A stretch of DNA of 7,532 bases, from NCBI GenBank assembly GCA_947258675.1, contig CAMYJP010000094.1, forward strand, positions 1-7,532, written 5' to 3'. The notes below the pieces were generated by a model. That model was given only the letters and a program-made list of their open reading frames with translations, was not told the DNA's origin and ran no database searches. The position numbers and the translations under genes were made by a program. Positions 1-7,532 of the stretch are shown here, piece by piece (the first letter of the stretch is position 1; each line of letters begins with the position of its first letter). Source of the DNA: an uncultured Desulfobulbaceae bacterium (GTDB taxonomy: Bacteria > Desulfobacterota > Desulfobulbia > Desulfobulbales > BM004).

Positions 1-888
1 TAATCGCAGTTTGGGGGCAGTTTCGACTGCCTTTTTCAATTCATCCCGTTCGGTTCCCCATACTTCGAATGTATAATCCTGGGGTGTGATTTGACCTCCT
101 TCCAAATCTGCGACAATGGACTGGATATCTGATGACTGAGACTCTGTAGCGGAATAGGTAAGGAAAATTCTTGGCATATCCTTACCGCCCGTCATTTGTG
201 AAAGGTTCCAACAAAGAGTGCCATAAGAGCGAACCAGGTCAGATACATTGTCACATTCGTCAACACGGTTAAGAACATAGAGTACTCGATCCTCACCTGT
301 TGAACCTGGTAGCGTGCTACGGATTGCTTTGTATGTTTCTTTTATTGTTCCAGCCTTGTGTGGATCAAACATCAGAATAATAAGATCAGCCAATTTGGCC
401 AGCTCTCCTACTACTCCCAAGTAATCATAACCCCTGTCTTTTTCTGTCACAGAATCCAGCATGCCTGGAGTGTCGATAATTACAAGTTTATCCAGTATAG
501 GAGCATCGATACGTTTCATATGCAGGTGGGAAATAAGGTTTTCTCCAAAAGGCCTTAATGCACCGAAAGGTAGACGTTCATCACCGACAACAGTGTGGCC
601 GGGAATTTCCCTTTCAGTTTCGCCATTTTCTGGTTTTGAAAGGATGGTAAAGGTATCATCAGTCGGAGCCTGTCCGGTTCGTTGAACATTTTTACCTAAC
701 AGCTCGTTGATGAAAGTTGATTTTCCTGATGAGTAGTTGCCAATTACCAAAACCAAAGGCTTCCATTTGAGAGGGGTGAGCAGATCGTCCAGCCCGGTTT
801 CGTATTTATTAAAAATAGGCCCCATCTTACGGCGAAGAACTTTTTCAAGTTTTTTTAGAAAAGATTTTGCGGCACTTTCTGTATCCAT
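1..888 (-). CDS. EHD-like dynamin-superfamily GTPase, C-terminus cut by window edge
   Basis: The open frame starts with ATG at 888 and runs off the left edge, giving 296 residues without a stop. Seen: residues 8-45 resemble the EHD_N helix region, followed by P-loop GNYSSGKST (50-58), a G2-like APTDD (74-78), DTPG (139-142) and NRVD as the G4 motif (207-210). Between them, PFGALRPFGENL (107-118) and RGYDYLGVVGELAKLADLII (152-171) match in order the 'PF..LNAFGNAFL' and 'RGYDFAAVLEWFAERVDRII' blocks I recall from eukaryotic EHD ATPases. The family binds nucleotide, oligomerises on membranes and remodels or cuts them; EHD members prefer ATP although the fold is GTPase-like. The C-terminal membrane-binding helices and any EF-hand region lie outside the window. 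The start is backed by CGAGG seven bases upstream and by a promoter at 930-958. Nucleotide preference and membrane action are inferred. It might be labelled simply 'dynamin family protein'. Confidence 0.85.
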   Translation of the reverse strand, partial: MDTESAAKSFLKKLEKVLRRKMGPIFNKYETGLDDLLTPLKWKPLVLVIGNYSSGKSTFINELLGKNVQRTGQAPTDDTFTILSKPENGETEREIPGHTVVGDERLPFGALRPFGENLISHLHMKRIDAPILDKLVIIDTPGMLDSVTEKDRGYDYLGVVGELAKLADLIILMFDPHKAGTIKETYKAIRSTLPGSTGEDRVLYVLNRVDECDNVSDLVRSYGTLCWNLSQMTGGKDMPRIFLTYSATESQSSDIQSIVADLEGGQITPQDYTFEVWGTERDELKKAVETAPKLRL

Positions 889-1206: not shown

Positions 1207-2610
1207 TCAGTTGTCAAAGAGTGATGTTTTTGTTTTAAGGGAGTAAATTTTCAGTCTCGTTTGAGCAGATGTGTTGAGAACACCAACCTTATGATCAGCA
1301 TAATCTATCACCTTAGCTTTTTTCCCTTTGGAAGGTCTTAAAATGCGACCGATTATCTGGCGCAGCCTGCCTGAGAACTTTATCGGTGTTGTAAGAAAAA
1401 GAGTGGTTAAATCCTGCGCATCAAAACCTTCTCCTACAAGCTGCAAAGTGGAGATAAGAATTTTCACTTCTCCATGCCGGACTCCATTGACAATTTCAGC
1501 ACGTTGATCTGCAGATACCTTGCCGGTCAATATTTTGCTCTCAATTTTCATAGACGACAGCAAGTTGGAGATCGTTTCGCAGTGGTTTATCCTGTCGCTA
1601 ACAACCAAAATGGAACCTATTCCACTCTTGGCTTCGGCTGCAATATCTGTGGCAATTTGTTGATTACGGGCATCATTGCTGGTCAGGGCAGTCATCAGGG
1701 CCTGATAATCTCCACGGAATCTGTATTCAAAGTTGGTTTTTTGTTGGATAAATTCAGGTTCAAGGACAGCTCCACTAGCTGTTAACATCCTTTGATCTAT
1801 TTCATGTGTTCGATCACCCATAAAATAGTAGATCAATTTTGTGAGTCCGTCTTCCCTTCTATATGCGGTTGCCGAAAGGCCTAGCGTATACTGGCAGTCA
1901 AAGGCTGTTACAACGTTTGTAAATAAGCTGGCTGGAACTCTATGACATTCGTCAACGATAAGATGGCCAAAACAGCAGGCAAGTTCTTTCAGCCTTTTAC
2001 GTGCCGTATTCACTATGGCGATGGAGACAGGCTGGATATTAAATTGACCATCTCCTATTAATCCTGGCTCTATTCCCAAGAATTCTTCCACTCGGTCACG
2101 CCATTGATACATTAATTCCTTGTTGTGCAGTAGAATTAAGACGGGCTGTTTTCGAACTGCAATAATGTAAAGAGCCATTATGGTTTTGCCAGAACCTGTG
2201 CCTGCAACAAGGACTCCGAAATGGTGTTTCAAAACATCATTCACTGCGGCTTTCTGGTAGGGCCGCAAAAGGCCATTAAATTGAAAGGGGCATTCTGGAA
2301 GCAGCCTTCGATTATCCACGATTCTAGGCAATTGTCCCAAGTGCTGCTGACAAAGCCGGAGTGCTTTCCGAGTGAATCCTCTGGGAAAACTGATATAATT
2401 TTTTCCCTCAGCATAAAATTGTAACTTAGGTTTGATTCTTTTTCCAACCCAGCGTCCATATTTTTTAGCATCCTTGTATTTAGGATTATCAATGGTCAGT
2501 TGTTGTTTAAGGGCATCCATCAATTGTCTTGAATACCCTTGAAGGCGGCAATCAGCAGCAACGGTTAGTTGAAAATCGAAATTTTGACCGGATTTGTTTT
2601 GTTCAGGCAT
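1207..2610 (-). CDS. SF2 DNA/RNA helicase, XPB/UvsW-like (DECH box)
   Basis: A 467-residue protein if it begins at ATG 2610. The same frame can be extended by 15 codons to a TTG at 2655, but that TTG has no ribosome binding site and falls within about five bases of the predicted transcription start. Seen (ATG numbering): Q-motif-like RPYQ (116-119), Walker A GTGSGKT (137-143), motif II DECH (220-223), motif III SAT (246-248), motif V GEGFD (393-397) and motif VI QIIGRILR (418-425). The first ~110 residues form an accessory domain. This order is that of ATP-dependent superfamily 2 translocases of the ResIII/XPB type, to which phage T4 UvsW and archaeal/bacterial XPB-like helicases belong; they unwind or remodel branched DNA. 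No nuclease or methylase domain is attached, and no restriction partner is next to it. The exact substrate is unknown. The ATG is poorly supported by a Shine-Dalgarno sequence. Confidence 0.88.
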   Translation of the reverse strand: MPEQNKSGQNFDFQLTVAADCRLQGYSRQLMDALKQQLTIDNPKYKDAKKYGRWVGKRIKPKLQFYAEGKNYISFPRGFTRKALRLCQQHLGQLPRIVDNRRLLPECPFQFNGLLRPYQKAAVNDVLKHHFGVLVAGTGSGKTIMALYIIAVRKQPVLILLHNKELMYQWRDRVEEFLGIEPGLIGDGQFNIQPVSIAIVNTARKRLKELACCFGHLIVDECHRVPASLFTNVVTAFDCQYTLGLSATAYRREDGLTKLIYYFMGDRTHEIDQRMLTASGAVLEPEFIQQKTNFEYRFRGDYQALMTALTSNDARNQQIATDIAAEAKSGIGSILVVSDRINHCETISNLLSSMKIESKILTGKVSADQRAEIVNGVRHGEVKILISTLQLVGEGFDAQDLTTLFLTTPIKFSGRLRQIIGRILRPSKGKKAKVIDYADHKVGVLNTSAQTRLKIYSLKTKTSLFDN

Positions 2611-2666
2611 TGTAGTTCTGAAGATAATCGAAAGAGTTGATACGGACAAATCCAATTTTTTTTTGT

Positions 2667-3190: not shown

Positions 3191-3209
3191 CCACCACTTC
3201 TAGTGGTGG
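3191..3209. repeat. Perfect 8-bp hairpin at left end of the repeat element
   Basis: CCACCACT, loop TCT, AGTGGTGG. A GC-rich tight hairpin of this kind is typical of REP sequences and of the ends recognised by IS200/IS605-type Y1 transposases. No transposase gene is in the window. Confidence 0.6.
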
Positions 3210-3552
3210 ACCCGGATAGGTTCTACCGATCAGGCGAACTCTTTCATATTCATTTTCTTTGCTTGCCCAAAGAAAACGAACCAAAAGAAAGGGCACCCGT
3301 GTCACTTGTCCGCCTAAGGCGGATTCCCTGTGCTCCTCGAATCTGTCGGGAGTTTGAAAACTCGCGGAGTTTATGCCCCCTGGCGGGGTGCTCAGACAGT
3401 CGGAGTCTACGCCACTTAGTGGCTCCGCTTACCTCAAACTCCTTTTTCGGCAGGTTCTGTGGTGCTCGGCTGCGTACCAATGGGAAAAACCTTAAAATTT
3501 GCAGATTGCCCCTTTCAAGGGGGCTCCCTGAGGCCACCCGCTCTATGGGTGG
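3191..3552. repeat. Hairpin-rich interspersed repeat element (REP/MITE-like)
   Basis: At least seven perfect short inverted repeats are packed in about 360 bases: CCACCACT/AGTGGTGG (3191-3209, 3-nt loop), TTTTCTTTG/CAAAGAAAA (3253-3276), TCCGCC/GGCGGA (3309-3323), GAGTTT/AAACTC (3350-3363), GCCACT/AGTGGC (3411-3423, 1-nt loop), CCCCTT/AAGGGG (3509-3522) and CCACCC/GGGTGG (3534-3552). A wider pair, GGAGTTTGA/TCAAACTCC (3349-3357 and 3434-3442), encloses several of them. The block is more GC-rich than its flanks and is bounded on both sides by CCACC-type hairpins. The AAAGAAAACGAACCAAAAGA segment resembles repeats I have seen spuriously translated as short hypothetical proteins in proteobacteria. 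No transposase is present, so it would be non-autonomous. Exact ends are uncertain. Confidence 0.65.
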
Positions 3553-3580
3553 AGACTCACTAATAACCGCTAAGGAAAGG

Positions 3581-4690
3581 ATGAAAGTTAAAGGAAAAGA
3601 TTATAGAACCATCTGGCCGGATGAATTTGATCGTCGTATTATTCAGATAATTGATCAGCGGCATTTGCCCCACAGGTTTGTAGTGGAAGATCTTAAATGT
3701 CATGCTGACTTTGTAGAAGCAATTCAGGAAATGCATGTCCGTGGTGCTGGGTTAATAGGGGCAACGGCCGGTTTCGGTATGTATAGCGCAGCACTTGCTG
3801 CACCTTTGGATAATTTTAATGATTACATGGATGCTGCCGCCCAAAAATTACTTGCTACCCGGCCAACTGCAAAAAATCTTGCCTGGGCGGTTGGAAGACA
3901 GCTTGCAGCAATTGCTGAAGAATCAGATGAGCTGGATGCTAAGATTAACAGGGCTTTTATTACGGCCTGTCAGATAGCAGATGAAGATGCACGATTCTGT
4001 AAAAGTATCGGTGAACACGGACTCGAATTGATAAAGCAGACTAGTCTGAAAAAATCGGGCGCACCTGTAAATATCCTCACTCATTGTAATGCTGGTTGGC
4101 TTGCTTTCGTAGACTATGGTTCAGCCACTGCTCCTATCTACGCTGCTCATCGAGCAGGCATCAAGGTGCATGTCTGGGTGGATGAAACGCGCCCCTGGAA
4201 CCAGGGAGCAAAACTTACAGCCTGGGAGTTGAGGGAAGAAGGTGTTCCCCATACTTTAATTGCCGATAATACTGGTGGCCATTTAATGCAACACAGAAAG
4301 GTTGATATGGTGATTGTTGGTACGGATAGAACCACGCGCTCTGGTGATGTAGCGAACAAGATTGGCACATATCTTAAGGCATTAGCGGCAAAAGATAACA
4401 ATATCCCATTTTACGTGGCTCTGCCTTCATCCACCTTTGACTGGGATCTTCAGGATGGAATTTCTGGTATTCCCATTGAAGAAAGAGATGGTGAAGAGTT
4501 GAAGCTTGTAACGGGTTTGACAAGGCAAAACAATATTGAAACAGTACTTATCTGCCCTGAAGATACAACGGCTGCCAACTACTCTTTTGATGTAACTCCT
4601 GCAAGACTGGTCAGCCGGTTAATTACTGAACGCGGATTGGTAAACGCTGACGAGAAATCCATTCTTTCATTGTTCCCTGAGCATACCTAG
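3581..4690 (+). CDS. mtnA: MtnA-family isomerase (S-methyl-5-thioribose-1-phosphate isomerase or relative)
   Basis: The protein has 369 residues from ATG 3581, the usual MtnA length. The start is set by AAGGA four bases upstream and by family homology beginning at MKVKGKDYRTIWPDE. The open frame extends upstream to a GTG at 3203, but those ~126 codons translate the hairpin repeat and are not part of the protein. Seen: VRGAGLIG (53-60, usually RGAPAIG), RPTAKNLAWAV (94-104), THCNAG with the catalytic Cys169, DETRPWNQGAKLTAWEL (201-217), VGTDR with the catalytic Asp249 (usually GADR), GDVANKIGTY (255-264) and the C-terminal FDVTPA (336-341). The family interconverts 5-methylthioribose-1-phosphate and 5-methylthioribulose-1-phosphate in methionine salvage; some members act on 5-deoxyribose-1-phosphate. 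No other salvage gene is nearby and the gene is convergent with the lipoprotein gene. The deviations in the two motifs leave room for a paralogue with another sugar phosphate as substrate. Confidence 0.88.
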   Translation: MKVKGKDYRTIWPDEFDRRIIQIIDQRHLPHRFVVEDLKCHADFVEAIQEMHVRGAGLIGATAGFGMYSAALAAPLDNFNDYMDAAAQKLLATRPTAKNLAWAVGRQLAAIAEESDELDAKINRAFITACQIADEDARFCKSIGEHGLELIKQTSLKKSGAPVNILTHCNAGWLAFVDYGSATAPIYAAHRAGIKVHVWVDETRPWNQGAKLTAWELREEGVPHTLIADNTGGHLMQHRKVDMVIVGTDRTTRSGDVANKIGTYLKALAAKDNNIPFYVALPSSTFDWDLQDGISGIPIEERDGEELKLVTGLTRQNNIETVLICPEDTTAANYSFDVTPARLVSRLITERGLVNADEKSILSLFPEHT

Positions 4691-4783: not shown

Positions 4784-5341
4784 TTACAAAAGTGGCTCCA
4801 ATTTAATTTCCACTCTTCGATTCATACTTCGGCCTTCTTCCGTATCGTTTGATGATATGGGCTTGGATTCACCGTAGCCAACAGCTTCAATCCACCTGTT
4901 ACCTACATTAAGGTCAAACAGTAGATTTCTCACTTTAACAGCCCGCTGTTCGGAGAGCTTAAGATTATGCTTTTGCGAGCCGTGGTTATCGGTATGACCT
5001 TCCACCCTGATAGTTGCCTCTGGATATTTCGCCAAAACTGATGCAATAAGATTTACTTCTAAATGAAGGCCTGGCTTTAATTCAATGGAATCAGGATCAA
5101 AGGCAAGAATATCCTGGAAGGACATTGAGAGTAAATCTCCTTCTCTGTGCACGGTTGTTACTTTTGAATCAGCTAGAGTCTTAAGTAATTCCTTTTCCAA
5201 GTTATTTATTATATCAGGGTCTTCGGCAAAGCTCTTAGCCTGTGTTTCGTCGGAGTAACCCTCTGGCGTCTGCTTTTGTTGAGTTGCACATGCCCCTAAT
5301 AGAAAAATAAAGAAAACCCCAAACCATATAATCTTGTTCAT
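4784..5341 (-). CDS. OmpA/Pal-like outer-membrane lipoprotein
   Basis: 185 residues from ATG 5341, preceded by a GGGGGG stretch with suitable spacing. Seen: a lipoprotein signal peptide with Lys3, a hydrophobic core and lipobox LGAC (Cys18); Ala19 at the +2 position favours the outer membrane. Residues 20-70 form a polar linker. Residues ~75-182 are an OmpA-like peptidoglycan-binding domain with VEGHTDNHG (113-121), NLKLSEQRAVKVRNLL (126-141), VGYGESKPI (154-162) and NRRVEI (174-179). By family knowledge Asp118 and Arg133 would contact diaminopimelate of the cell wall. The protein would tether the outer membrane to peptidoglycan, like Pal. No tolB, ybgF or other tol-pal gene is next to it, so I do not call it pal. 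It lies downstream of the GGDEF/HD-GYP gene on the same strand, but a 314-base gap and its own promoter argue against one operon. Confidence 0.88.
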   Translation of the reverse strand: MNKIIWFGVFFIFLLGACATQQKQTPEGYSDETQAKSFAEDPDIINNLEKELLKTLADSKVTTVHREGDLLSMSFQDILAFDPDSIELKPGLHLEVNLIASVLAKYPEATIRVEGHTDNHGSQKHNLKLSEQRAVKVRNLLFDLNVGNRWIEAVGYGESKPISSNDTEEGRSMNRRVEIKLEPLL

Positions 5342-5655
5342 TATTACCCCCCAGTTGCTTGTTTATTAAAAAAAATATTTTATAATTTGCCCTATTTTCT
5401 TAGAGCATTACTCATGGTCTGTCAATTGGAAAGGTTTGTTAAAAAAATAATAATCAGATTTATATATGAAATATTAATCTAATAATAAATTTTAAGTATT
5501 ATTTTTATATTTTTGTTTTAATGGTTTAAATATCTATCTTGTGTTTTTATGGAGCATGGTGGTTGGTGGGCCCAAGGAAGGAGTCGTGCGGTGTCGATAA
5601 TTGATTTGGGTGTTGGAGGGAGTATCCAATCCTCTTCGGTTTTGGAGAAAATATT
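5342..5655. other. Intergenic region between lipoprotein and GGDEF/HD-GYP genes
   Basis: The left two thirds are very AT-rich and contain an AATAATA/TATTATT hairpin near 5480-5505, followed by T-rich sequence on the plus strand. The right third (about 5550-5650) is GC-rich, with TGGGCCCA and imperfect repeats of GG-rich words. I find no clear terminator for the GGDEF/HD-GYP gene and no ORF worth calling. Confidence 0.4.
5397..5425 (-). promoter_or_regulatory. Candidate sigma-70 promoter of the lipoprotein gene
   Basis: A perfect TTGACA (5425-5420) is followed after 17 bases by TAAGAA (5402-5397, a poor -10 box) on the minus strand. The start site would be near 5390, about 50 nt before the ATG at 5341. 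Confidence 0.4.
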
Positions 5656-7056
5656 TCAGAAAAATCGATACGTAGAGGATGTCAGGGTTTTGATGTCCAA
5701 AACCTCTTGACCTGGAATCTTTTTTGCCGCTTTTGGAAGGCTTTGTCTGATAAGTTCAATAAAGCTTTCAACAATTTTAGGGTCAAACTGCTGCCCTTTT
5801 TCACTCTGCAATATCTCGAAGGCTGCATCTGCTGATATTTTTGTCTGGAATTCTCTTTCTGTTGTCATGGCGTCATATGCATCCGCCACAGCAATTATTT
5901 TTGCTCCAAGAGGTATTTCGTTTTCTCGCAAACCATGGGGGTACCCCTTGCCGTCATATCTTTCATGGTGGTGACGGATTATTGGTATTTCTTTAGCTAA
6001 GAAGCTGATATTTTTTAATATATTTACGCCTATGGCTGGGTGTTTCTTTATGTTTTCAAATTCTTCTGCTGAAAGGTGATTTTTCTTTGTAAGAATATTT
6101 TTGTCTATGCCGATTTTACCTATATCATGAAATAAGGCAGCATTTTTTATTACTTCAATTTCTTGCTTAGGGAGTTTCAGGTGATTTGCCAGCTTTACGG
6201 CATATTTCGCAACATTTCGAGAATGCTTCAGTGTATAATGATCCTTGGCATCTATGGCACCAAGCAAGGCATTTGTTGATTCAATATAATTACCTTTTAC
6301 CTGTTTATAGAGATCAAGCACTTTTCCTTTCAATTCATCAATGCTGCAATAATCGATAGATCCTCCAGTGTTGTCATTCTTCTCCGACCAGCTTCGTATG
6401 ATGTTCCGGCCATCCTTTTTGGCTTGATAAAGAGCTTGGTCTGCTCGGTCAACAAGTTCTTGATATGTGTTCAGTTCATTTCGGTAGTCGGCTACCCCGA
6501 TGCTTACAGTAACACGGACTTGATTGTTCCCATCAGAGAAGATTTGATTTTCGATGATTTTATTTAAGCGCATAGCATATTCCATGGCTTCATGTAAAGG
6601 GAGGGTCGCCAGCATGACGAATTCTTCACCTCCATATCTGCCGCAGATATCAACATTCCGTGTTAATTTTCTAATAATATTGGCAATGGTTTTGAGAATG
6701 GTGTCACCGAATTGATGACCACAACTGTCATTGATTTGTTTGAAGTGGTCTAAATCAAGCATTAAAACAGAAAGGGGAGTGGAATATCTTTTTGAGCGGT
6801 TAAATTCTTCCTGGCAACGCTCCATCATGAAACGGTGATTGAATAACTCAGTCAAGCCGTCAGTGTTTGACAGGTTAGTCAGCTCTTCAATTTTGTTCTC
6901 AAGCTGCTGCCTTATTATCTTTGCATCTTCAATTTCCTGCAACAACTCAAGACGTGATCTGGTCAGCTTTTTATTGTCTGAATAAAGAAAAACAGTCTCT
7001 TTGTTAAGAAGGCTGATAGTCTTTTTTAGTTCATCAATAGAATTTTGTTTAGCCAA
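5656..7056 (-). CDS. Bifunctional GGDEF + HD-GYP cyclic-di-GMP enzyme
   Basis: 466 residues starting at TTG 7056, chosen because AGGAG lies seven bases upstream; the nearer ATG at 7062 is followed at once by TAA. Seen: an N-terminal helical, probably coiled-coil segment (1-60) without membrane helices, so the protein is cytosolic. The GGDEF domain (~62-222) has DLDHF with metal ligand Asp101, Asn109 and Asp118 for guanine contact (GHQFGD), the active-site GGEEF (142-146) and an inhibitory I-site RNVD (133-136) five residues before it. The HD-GYP domain (~255-440) has His278, HDIGK (310-314), KKHP (337-340), HHERYDGKGYP (363-373) and the following conserved ADAYDAMTT (391-399). Both halves keep their catalytic residues, so it may both make c-di-GMP from two GTP and hydrolyse it. 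Asp118 is the residue replaced by Ser in cGAMP-making 'Hypr' cyclases, so c-di-GMP is the expected product. Its mRNA leader carries a c-di-GMP riboswitch. Confidence 0.93.
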   Translation of the reverse strand: MAKQNSIDELKKTISLLNKETVFLYSDNKKLTRSRLELLQEIEDAKIIRQQLENKIEELTNLSNTDGLTELFNHRFMMERCQEEFNRSKRYSTPLSVLMLDLDHFKQINDSCGHQFGDTILKTIANIIRKLTRNVDICGRYGGEEFVMLATLPLHEAMEYAMRLNKIIENQIFSDGNNQVRVTVSIGVADYRNELNTYQELVDRADQALYQAKKDGRNIIRSWSEKNDNTGGSIDYCSIDELKGKVLDLYKQVKGNYIESTNALLGAIDAKDHYTLKHSRNVAKYAVKLANHLKLPKQEIEVIKNAALFHDIGKIGIDKNILTKKNHLSAEEFENIKKHPAIGVNILKNISFLAKEIPIIRHHHERYDGKGYPHGLRENEIPLGAKIIAVADAYDAMTTEREFQTKISADAAFEILQSEKGQQFDPKIVESFIELIRQSLPKAAKKIPGQEVLDIKTLTSSTYRFF

Positions 7057-7068
7057 TTACATTCTCCT
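7054..7068 (-). promoter_or_regulatory. Ribosome binding site and unusual ATG-TAA-TTG start context
   Basis: AGGAG (7068-7064) is followed by ATG at 7062, stop TAA at 7059 and TTG at 7056, all in frame. The ATG is only one base from AGGAG, the TTG seven bases, so the TTG is the likely start. The site begins just six bases after the attenuator hairpin. Confidence 0.7.
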
Positions 7069-7074
7069 AAATAG

Positions 7075-7110
7075 AAAAGGTCCATCTCTTTACCAAAAGA
7101 TGGACCTTTT
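7075..7110 (-). terminator. Attenuator hairpin in the leader of the GGDEF/HD-GYP gene
   Basis: On the minus strand AAAAGGTCCATCT (7110-7098) pairs perfectly with AGATGGACCTTTT (7087-7075), a 13-bp stem with a 10-nt loop, followed by CTATTT. The T-run is partly inside the stem. It lies between the riboswitch aptamer and the start codon, where a riboswitch-controlled terminator is expected. Its ascending strand GTCCATCT can instead pair with AGGTGGAC of the aptamer. Confidence 0.7.
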
Positions 7111-7137
7111 ACACAAAATTATCTGATAGTGTGATAT

Positions 7138-7145
7138 GTCCACCT
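7138..7145 (-). promoter_or_regulatory. Anti-terminator strand overlapping aptamer P1
   Basis: AGGTGGAC (7145-7138, minus strand) can pair over eight bases, one of them G-U, with GTCCATCT at 7105-7098 in the terminator stem. Its first three bases (AGG, 7145-7143) also belong to the 3' strand of aptamer helix P1, so ligand binding and anti-termination compete. Confidence 0.55.
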
Positions 7146-7222
7146 ACGGCAACCCGGCTCTCCATTGAATGGATCCGTGGTTTTCCGTCTCCCGATTACT
7201 CAGGGTTTGGCTTTATCATAGG
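7143..7222 (-). ncRNA. Cyclic-di-GMP-I (GEMM-I) riboswitch aptamer
   Basis: An 80-nt match to the GEMM-I aptamer, read on the minus strand. P1 is CCTAT (7222-7218) with GTAGG (7147-7143). A conserved CAAACC is followed by a hairpin CCTGA-GTAA-UCGGG with a GNRA tetraloop. Next come GACGGAAAACC, holding the A equivalent to A47 that stacks between the ligand guanines, a second hairpin with TCCAT-TCA-ATGGA, and the typical GCCGGGTTGCCG 3' part with the C that pairs with the second guanine. In Vc2 numbering the ligand-recognising position 20 is G, not the A of cGAMP-specific GEMM-Ib, and pair 21-46 is C-G, a covariation from G-C in Vc2. This predicts c-di-GMP as ligand. The aptamer precedes a c-di-GMP enzyme gene. 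Confidence 0.88.
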
Positions 7223-7247
7223 GGAAGACTACTTTCCCTTTTTTCTT

Positions 7248-7262
7248 GCAACATGCGAGCCA
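7248..7262 (-). promoter_or_regulatory. Sigma-54 (-24/-12) promoter of the riboswitch-GGDEF/HD-GYP unit
   Basis: TGGCTCGCATGTTGC, followed by A, matches the consensus TGGCACG-N4-TTGCW at every defined position except A to T in the -24 element, with correct spacing. The predicted transcription start is near 7236, about 14 nt before the aptamer, giving a leader of about 180 nt. Sigma-54 promoters need an enhancer-binding activator. Confidence 0.75.
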
Positions 7263-7413
7263 TTGTTTTTTTTATTATTTTTGTATATTTTTCAATTATT
7301 TATATTTATATTCGTAATTTCTTTTTGTGTTGCTCGCAGTCTTGTGACGTCTCGTGTGGGTTATTTCGCGCTTTTTCTGGGTAGTTGTTAGTGCCCCCTC
7401 CCCATAGAAATAA

Positions 7414-7430
7414 TGTTTAACGGTTCAACA
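7414..7430. promoter_or_regulatory. Imperfect palindrome, possible activator site for the sigma-54 promoter
   Basis: TGTTTAACGGTTCAACA is a 17-base dyad (TGTT-N-AAC-N-GTT-N-AACA) with one mismatched pair. It lies about 185 bp upstream of the predicted start site, a usual distance for an enhancer-binding protein. Only one copy is seen. Confidence 0.3.
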
Positions 7431-7499
7431 ATAAACTAATCGTTGGTGCGTTATTTTTTTTTATTAGACGTATTGGGTCGTAATTTTTGTCGGTACTAG

Positions 7500-7532
7500 A
7501 AAAAATAAAAGGCTGAACCTTTTTAAGGTTCA
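7500..7532 (-). terminator. Intrinsic terminator of a gene beyond the right edge
   Basis: On the minus strand TGAACCTT (7532-7525), loop AAA, AAGGTTCA (7521-7514) forms a perfect 8-bp hairpin followed by GCC and TTTTATTTTTT. This should end a minus-strand transcript coming from outside the window and separates it from the riboswitch unit. Confidence 0.65.

Follow-up and report, generated by a model that had tools for sequence, protein, structure and literature searches.

A probable transcriptional OFF riboswitch for c-di-GMP in the leader of a GGDEF/HD-GYP gene from an uncultured Desulfobulbaceae bacterium

The stretch of DNA analyzed here (7,532 nucleotides, called the window below) carries a minus-strand gene for a protein with a GGDEF and an HD-GYP domain, preceded by a leader with a c-di-GMP-I (GEMM-I) aptamer, an intrinsic-terminator-like hairpin and a putative promoter. 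These features and the neighboring genes are listed in Table 1. RF01051 was the only Rfam family that exceeded its threshold in the window, and its covariance match falls where the initial annotation had placed a GEMM-I aptamer on the minus strand (7143-7222). The isolated aptamer piece (7236-7138, -29.1 kcal/mol) is not unusually stable, with 11 of 200 shuffles equally stable, and the aptamer call therefore rests on the covariance model and not on folding energy.

Pfam places the GGDEF domain at residues 64-218 of the protein (E 3.3e-44) and HD_5 at residues 267-428 (E 5.8e-38). The motifs RNVD (133-136), GGEEF (142-146), HDIGK (310-314), HHE (363-365) and GKGYP (369-373) are all present, which agrees with the earlier description of intact cyclase and HD-GYP motifs. 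The first half has the features of a diguanylate cyclase, namely the GGDEF match, GGEEF and DLDHFKQINDSCGHQFGD, which carries Asp and not the Ser of Hypr enzymes in the GHxxGD position; we take this Asp for the one that PMC6456294 (available text) names. The second half has those of an HD-GYP phosphodiesterase (the HD_5 match with the HD, HHE and GYP motifs), and its best solved matches are 5z7c, a cGAMP phosphodiesterase, and 4mcw. An I-site, with a second layer of feedback, had also been noted; its motif is present, at the level of sequence only. Pfam recognized no sensor domain in the protein at E 0.001, so transcription start and termination in the leader are probably its main inputs.

Table 1. 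Features of the window, with positions on the whole stretch
Feature	Position	Strand	Details
Sigma-54-type (-24/-12) promoter, predicted, TGGCTCGCATGTTGCA	7262-7247	-	11/12 consensus positions, GG-N10-GC; predicted RNA start ~7236
P1 5' strand UCCCCUAUG	7225-7217	-	Pairs with 7148-7139 in the minimum-energy fold of 7236-7138
c-di-GMP-I (GEMM-I) aptamer	7221-7145	-	RF01051, 61.3 bits, gathering score 35, E 1.8e-10
Switching strand A AGGUGGAC	7145-7138	-	Common to P1 and anti-terminator; 8 bp with 7105-7098
Intrinsic-terminator-like hairpin, U-rich tail	7110-7075	-	16 bp, -21.9 kcal/mol, 0/200 shuffles as good
Strand T GUCCAUCU	7105-7098	-	In terminator 5' arm; pairs with strand A
Ribosome-binding site AGGAG	7068-7064	-	Sequence
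ATG-TAA start-stop between AGGAG and the TTG start, directly before TTG	7062-7057	-	Sequence
GGDEF + HD-GYP gene	7056-5656	-	466 aa, TTG start; ORF, Pfam, motifs
OmpA-domain protein	4784-5341	-	Neighbor
S-methyl-5-thioribose-1-phosphate isomerase	3203-4690	+	Neighbor; exceeds NCBIfam cut-off
Helicase	1207-2655	-	Neighbor; sub-cut-off matches to RadD and XPB
Dynamin-type GTPase	1-888	-	Neighbor
Terminator-like hairpin at contig edge	7514-7532	-	8-bp stem, T-rich tail; consensus scan, inverted repeat I5

The hairpin downstream of the aptamer had been described before as a 13-bp attenuator at 7075-7110. It lies at these positions, but its stem is a perfect 16 bp including one G-U pair, with a 4-nt loop. 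A simple consensus scan for terminators did not list it, presumably because the scan requires a T run that follows the stem, whereas four of the T's here belong to the stem itself.

Strands A and T take part in mutually exclusive pairings, as A can pair either with the 5' strand of P1 or with T. The A:T pairing has 8 bp, one of them G-U, and had been proposed by the initial annotation (7138-7145 with 7098-7105); folded as a 48-nt piece, the anti-terminator reaches -13.8 kcal/mol, and 1 of 200 shuffles was equally stable. In the window this folding energy is more telling than the length of the pairing. Judged by contiguous length alone, the pairing is no more than suggestive, as 6.3% of 20,000 shuffles of the terminator arm reach 8 bp; the same test gave 26% and 83% of shuffles for the related leaders of genomes G001 and G019 described below. 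All of these tests are conditional on the pairing having been looked for. AGGTG in strand A and CCATC in strand T are invariant in the four-way alignment.

Folding of the leader was followed from the predicted RNA start at 7236. The fold of 7236-7138 contains a 9-bp P1 with one bulge, which takes up AGGUGGA. Among growing transcripts, those of 98-134 nt have P1 at 0.6-1.7 kcal/mol above the free ensemble. At 140-152 nt the anti-terminator outcompetes P1, with an advantage of 5.6-9.1 kcal/mol, and in the 164-nt transcript P1 together with the terminator is better than the anti-terminator by 6.7 kcal/mol. In the finished RNA the equilibrium favors the terminator with or without P1, and any switching must therefore be kinetic. 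Starts further upstream (24 or 18 nt before the aptamer) were set aside, as a 5' hairpin then competes with P1, which forms when the RNA starts at 7236. For the start 18 nt before the aptamer this hairpin puts the P1 state, enforced as 6 bp and not as the 9 bp used for growing transcripts from 7236, about 3-6 kcal/mol above the free ensemble, so the switch model leans on the predicted start. On the plus strand, a terminator-like hairpin at 7220-7239(+) overlaps the P1 5' strand; on the minus strand, 7220-7239 forms the 5' hairpin described above, the competitor of P1 in RNAs that start upstream of 7236.

The best explanation of this leader is that a transcriptional OFF c-di-GMP-I riboswitch quite likely controls the GGDEF/HD-GYP gene, which would be transcribed from a probable sigma-54 promoter. 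The aptamer, the hairpin, the exclusive pairings and their recurrence were computed, and from them we infer the steps of the switch. At low c-di-GMP, strand A would leave P1 and, while the 3' arm of the terminator is still unmade, capture the 5' arm, and the polymerase would then read through into the gene. With c-di-GMP bound, P1 would retain strand A, the terminator would fold and the gene would be left untranscribed.

The putative promoter lies 25 nt upstream of the aptamer. It was scored against a sigma-54 consensus that is taken here to be TGGCACG-N4-TTGCW with GG-N10-GC, and 0.03 such sites are expected by chance per window strand (300 first-order Markov sequences). Sigma-54 input to the leader, through this predicted promoter, is probable; a promoter of this type would determine where the RNA begins and add a second input. 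The initial annotation did not include it, though the region it described ends exactly at the site, at 7262. A consensus scan of 5400-7532 gave no minus-strand sigma-70 promoter ahead of the aptamer. Inverted repeats in 7240-7532, considered as sites for an enhancer protein, were rejected, as most of them either had A/T-rich arms or belonged to the contig-edge hairpin. This edge hairpin may terminate transcripts that come from further upstream.

The arrangement recurs in relatives. A genome scan returned eight loci, and an aptamer match (50.2 bits) was found at only one of them, L001 in G001; the other seven, partial matches with 32-43% identity, had no aptamer match. G001 is a Deltaproteobacteria MAG with 56% protein identity and the same layout as the window. 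Its terminator (GUCCAUCUUU...AAAGAUGGAC) has 12 bp, with 0 of 200 shuffles as good, and its A:T pairing has 7 bp, 7 of the 8 positions being paired. A protein search in the class of G001 (257 genomes, E <= 1e-80) found two genomes, G001 and G019 (57%), and the aptamer is directly upstream of the gene in both (2/2). The search of the phylum at the same threshold found 1 of 395 genomes. In both searches at most six candidates were scored per listed genome, and the broken copy in a further genome, G021, was missed. In G019 the terminator is shorter, 4 of 8 A:T and 4 of 6 P1 positions pair in the register of the window, and the competing pairing is weak. In G021 (G021:C144, locus L089) an aptamer precedes an intact GGDEF part and a frameshifted HD-GYP part; no terminator was detected in this leader, and 6 of 8 A:T positions are paired. 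Because the aptamer was what led to G021, this genome does not count as independent evidence of the linkage. The HD-GYP half of the protein is better conserved than the GGDEF half (66% vs 54% in G001, 65% vs 56% in G019). Among plasmids, the best 5000 records listed were all below 60% identity. A PilZ identity for the gene that follows the G001 copy was considered, and Pfam gave it no support.

The family of G001 was also surveyed for the aptamer itself, giving 108 GEMM-I matches in 19 of 22 genomes. Of the 96 aptamers examined from these 108, three (in G001, G019 and G021) precede window-like GGDEF/HD-GYP sequence, with at most 2600 bases downstream covered, for many at most 1500, and domain similarity taken at E <= 1e-6. 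The promoter was compared in the same leaders. G001 has a 10/12 sigma-54 match 31 nt from the aptamer and G019 an 8/12 match 34 nt from it, with GT replacing the -12 GC; G021 has, read by eye, a similar site with the same replacement. Across 97 leaders (the 96 and the window), 16 have a GG-N10-GC site scoring at least 10 within 150 nt upstream, though some of the 16 share a genome and may not be independent. In the controls, such sites averaged 0.22 over 100 shuffles and never exceeded 2, and they were present in 5 of 725 downstream stretches. In 54 of the 97 there is no GG-N10-GC whatever within 150 nt upstream. Sigma-54-type promoters thus recur before GEMM-I leaders of this family, but in a minority of them. 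No description of a sigma-54 promoter paired with a GEMM-I leader was found in the titles and abstract openings searched.

The same parts could instead form an ON switch, or control translation and not termination, although this is unlikely. GEMM-I aptamers work in both directions (PMC9262584, available text), and the hairpin lies 6 nt upstream of the ribosome-binding site. Additionally, a crude detector applied to the 97 leaders gave 8 OFF-like and 6 ON-like leaders and no terminator in 76, which suggests that the family of G001 is not limited to one layout. However, the hairpin of the window ends in a U-rich tail and does not occlude AGGAG, and strand A, which lies outside the terminator stem, has its pairing partner in the 5' arm of the downstream terminator. 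This is the topology of Cd1, the OFF switch of the flgB operon of Clostridioides difficile, in which the terminator is formed by T+H and the anti-terminator uses A (PMC9262584); in the ON switch of pilM, as described in the same source, strand A is inside the terminator. ON logic was set aside on this strand topology, and its match to Cd1 makes a transcriptional OFF riboswitch most likely. The OFF logic of the initial annotation is thus supported by the family model, recurrence in relatives, the folding of growing transcripts and the strand topology shared with Cd1.

It is very unlikely that the ligand of the aptamer is 3',3'-cGAMP or an unknown compound, as might hold for a member of the Rfam variant family RF03167 (c-di-GMP-I-GGC). 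RF03167 was kept as the best clan member for the window in a small search space (E 2.1e-13), and the relative G019 passes its cut-off (66.1 vs 59 bits) while also reading A at the variant position. However, the window falls below this cut-off (57.7 vs 59 bits) and has A at the variant position where the RF03167 consensus has G; the meaning of 'GGC' in the family name is presumed here. The bases that contact c-di-GMP in Vc2 are G20, A47 and C92 (PMC4744006, available text), and the window has G, A and C at these positions, with the numbering transferred by us onto the Rfam alignments. Aptamers of the cGAMP type (GEMM-Ib) have A at position 20, and changing A20 to G switches their specificity to c-di-GMP (PMC6456294, available text), so the G20 of the window does not fit that type. 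From the ligand-contact bases, the expected ligand is c-di-GMP rather than cGAMP, and both variant-ligand families were set aside on score and key bases. Among the 97 surveyed aptamers, a crude pattern read the base before the P2 pair as A in 8, G in 70 and C in 1, and 18 were unreadable. In Geobacter this position selects for cGAMP, and the 8 aptamers with A suggest that cGAMP signaling may occur in the family of G001. A decaying leader, with an aptamer relic and a hairpin that is merely a constitutive attenuator, is highly improbable, for although G021 indicates that the terminator and the HD-GYP part can decay together, the aptamer, hairpin, competing strand and gene of the window are all intact and G001 retains the same elements.

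If the OFF riboswitch operates as proposed, the sign of the feedback is a separate matter. The initial annotation called the circuit self-limiting, which the sequence does not entail, as the motifs of the cyclase and of the phosphodiesterase are both intact. Which sign the loop has is set by the dominant one of the two activities and is not settled by the sequence. With a dominant cyclase, c-di-GMP would limit itself by negative feedback; with a dominant phosphodiesterase, this OFF switch would act by positive feedback, as a latch. G021, in which the GGDEF part is kept and the HD-GYP part broken, is one case that weighs towards cyclase activity being worth keeping. It is a tentative and rather doubtful proposal that an activator-dependent sigma-54 promoter, an RNA OFF switch and a sensor-less enzyme with two activities form a bistable memory circuit. 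If this were true and the phosphodiesterase dominant, rising c-di-GMP would shut off its own destroyer and the cell would commit to a high-c-di-GMP state, with reset by the sigma-54 activator or by dilution, and an RNA-enzyme memory circuit would have been kept in a deltaproteobacteria-like lineage. The locus would be a case, recurring in relatives, where the signal acts through RNA on a single enzyme that has both a making and a destroying half. The circuit is compact, and feedback sign, bistability and sigma-54 input are directly measurable in it.

The arrangement of a GEMM RNA before a gene for a c-di-GMP enzyme is already in print: PMC12564702 (available text) reports, after Weinberg and Sudarsan, that GEMM RNAs were first found ahead of the ORFs of some DGCs and PDEs. 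The window resembles these cases in having a c-di-GMP-I aptamer in front of a c-di-GMP turnover gene. A review describes riboswitch control of c-di-GMP metabolic genes as rare (PMC6366702, available text). No published case with the details of the window was found in the later literature compared. The pilM cGAMP riboswitch of Geobacter metallireducens (GEMM-Ib) shares a related aptamer fold, transcriptional control and a leader terminator, but differs in A at position 20, cGAMP as the ligand, ON logic and strand A in the terminator (PMC6456294, PMC9262584). The closer likeness is to Cd1, in aptamer class, in c-di-GMP as the expected ligand, in the T+H terminator and in a strand-A anti-terminator that is transiently stable; that of Cd1 refolds into the terminator over time (PMC9262584). 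However, Cd1 controls flagellar genes, whereas the leader of the window has a sigma-54-type promoter and precedes the gene of a c-di-GMP enzyme.
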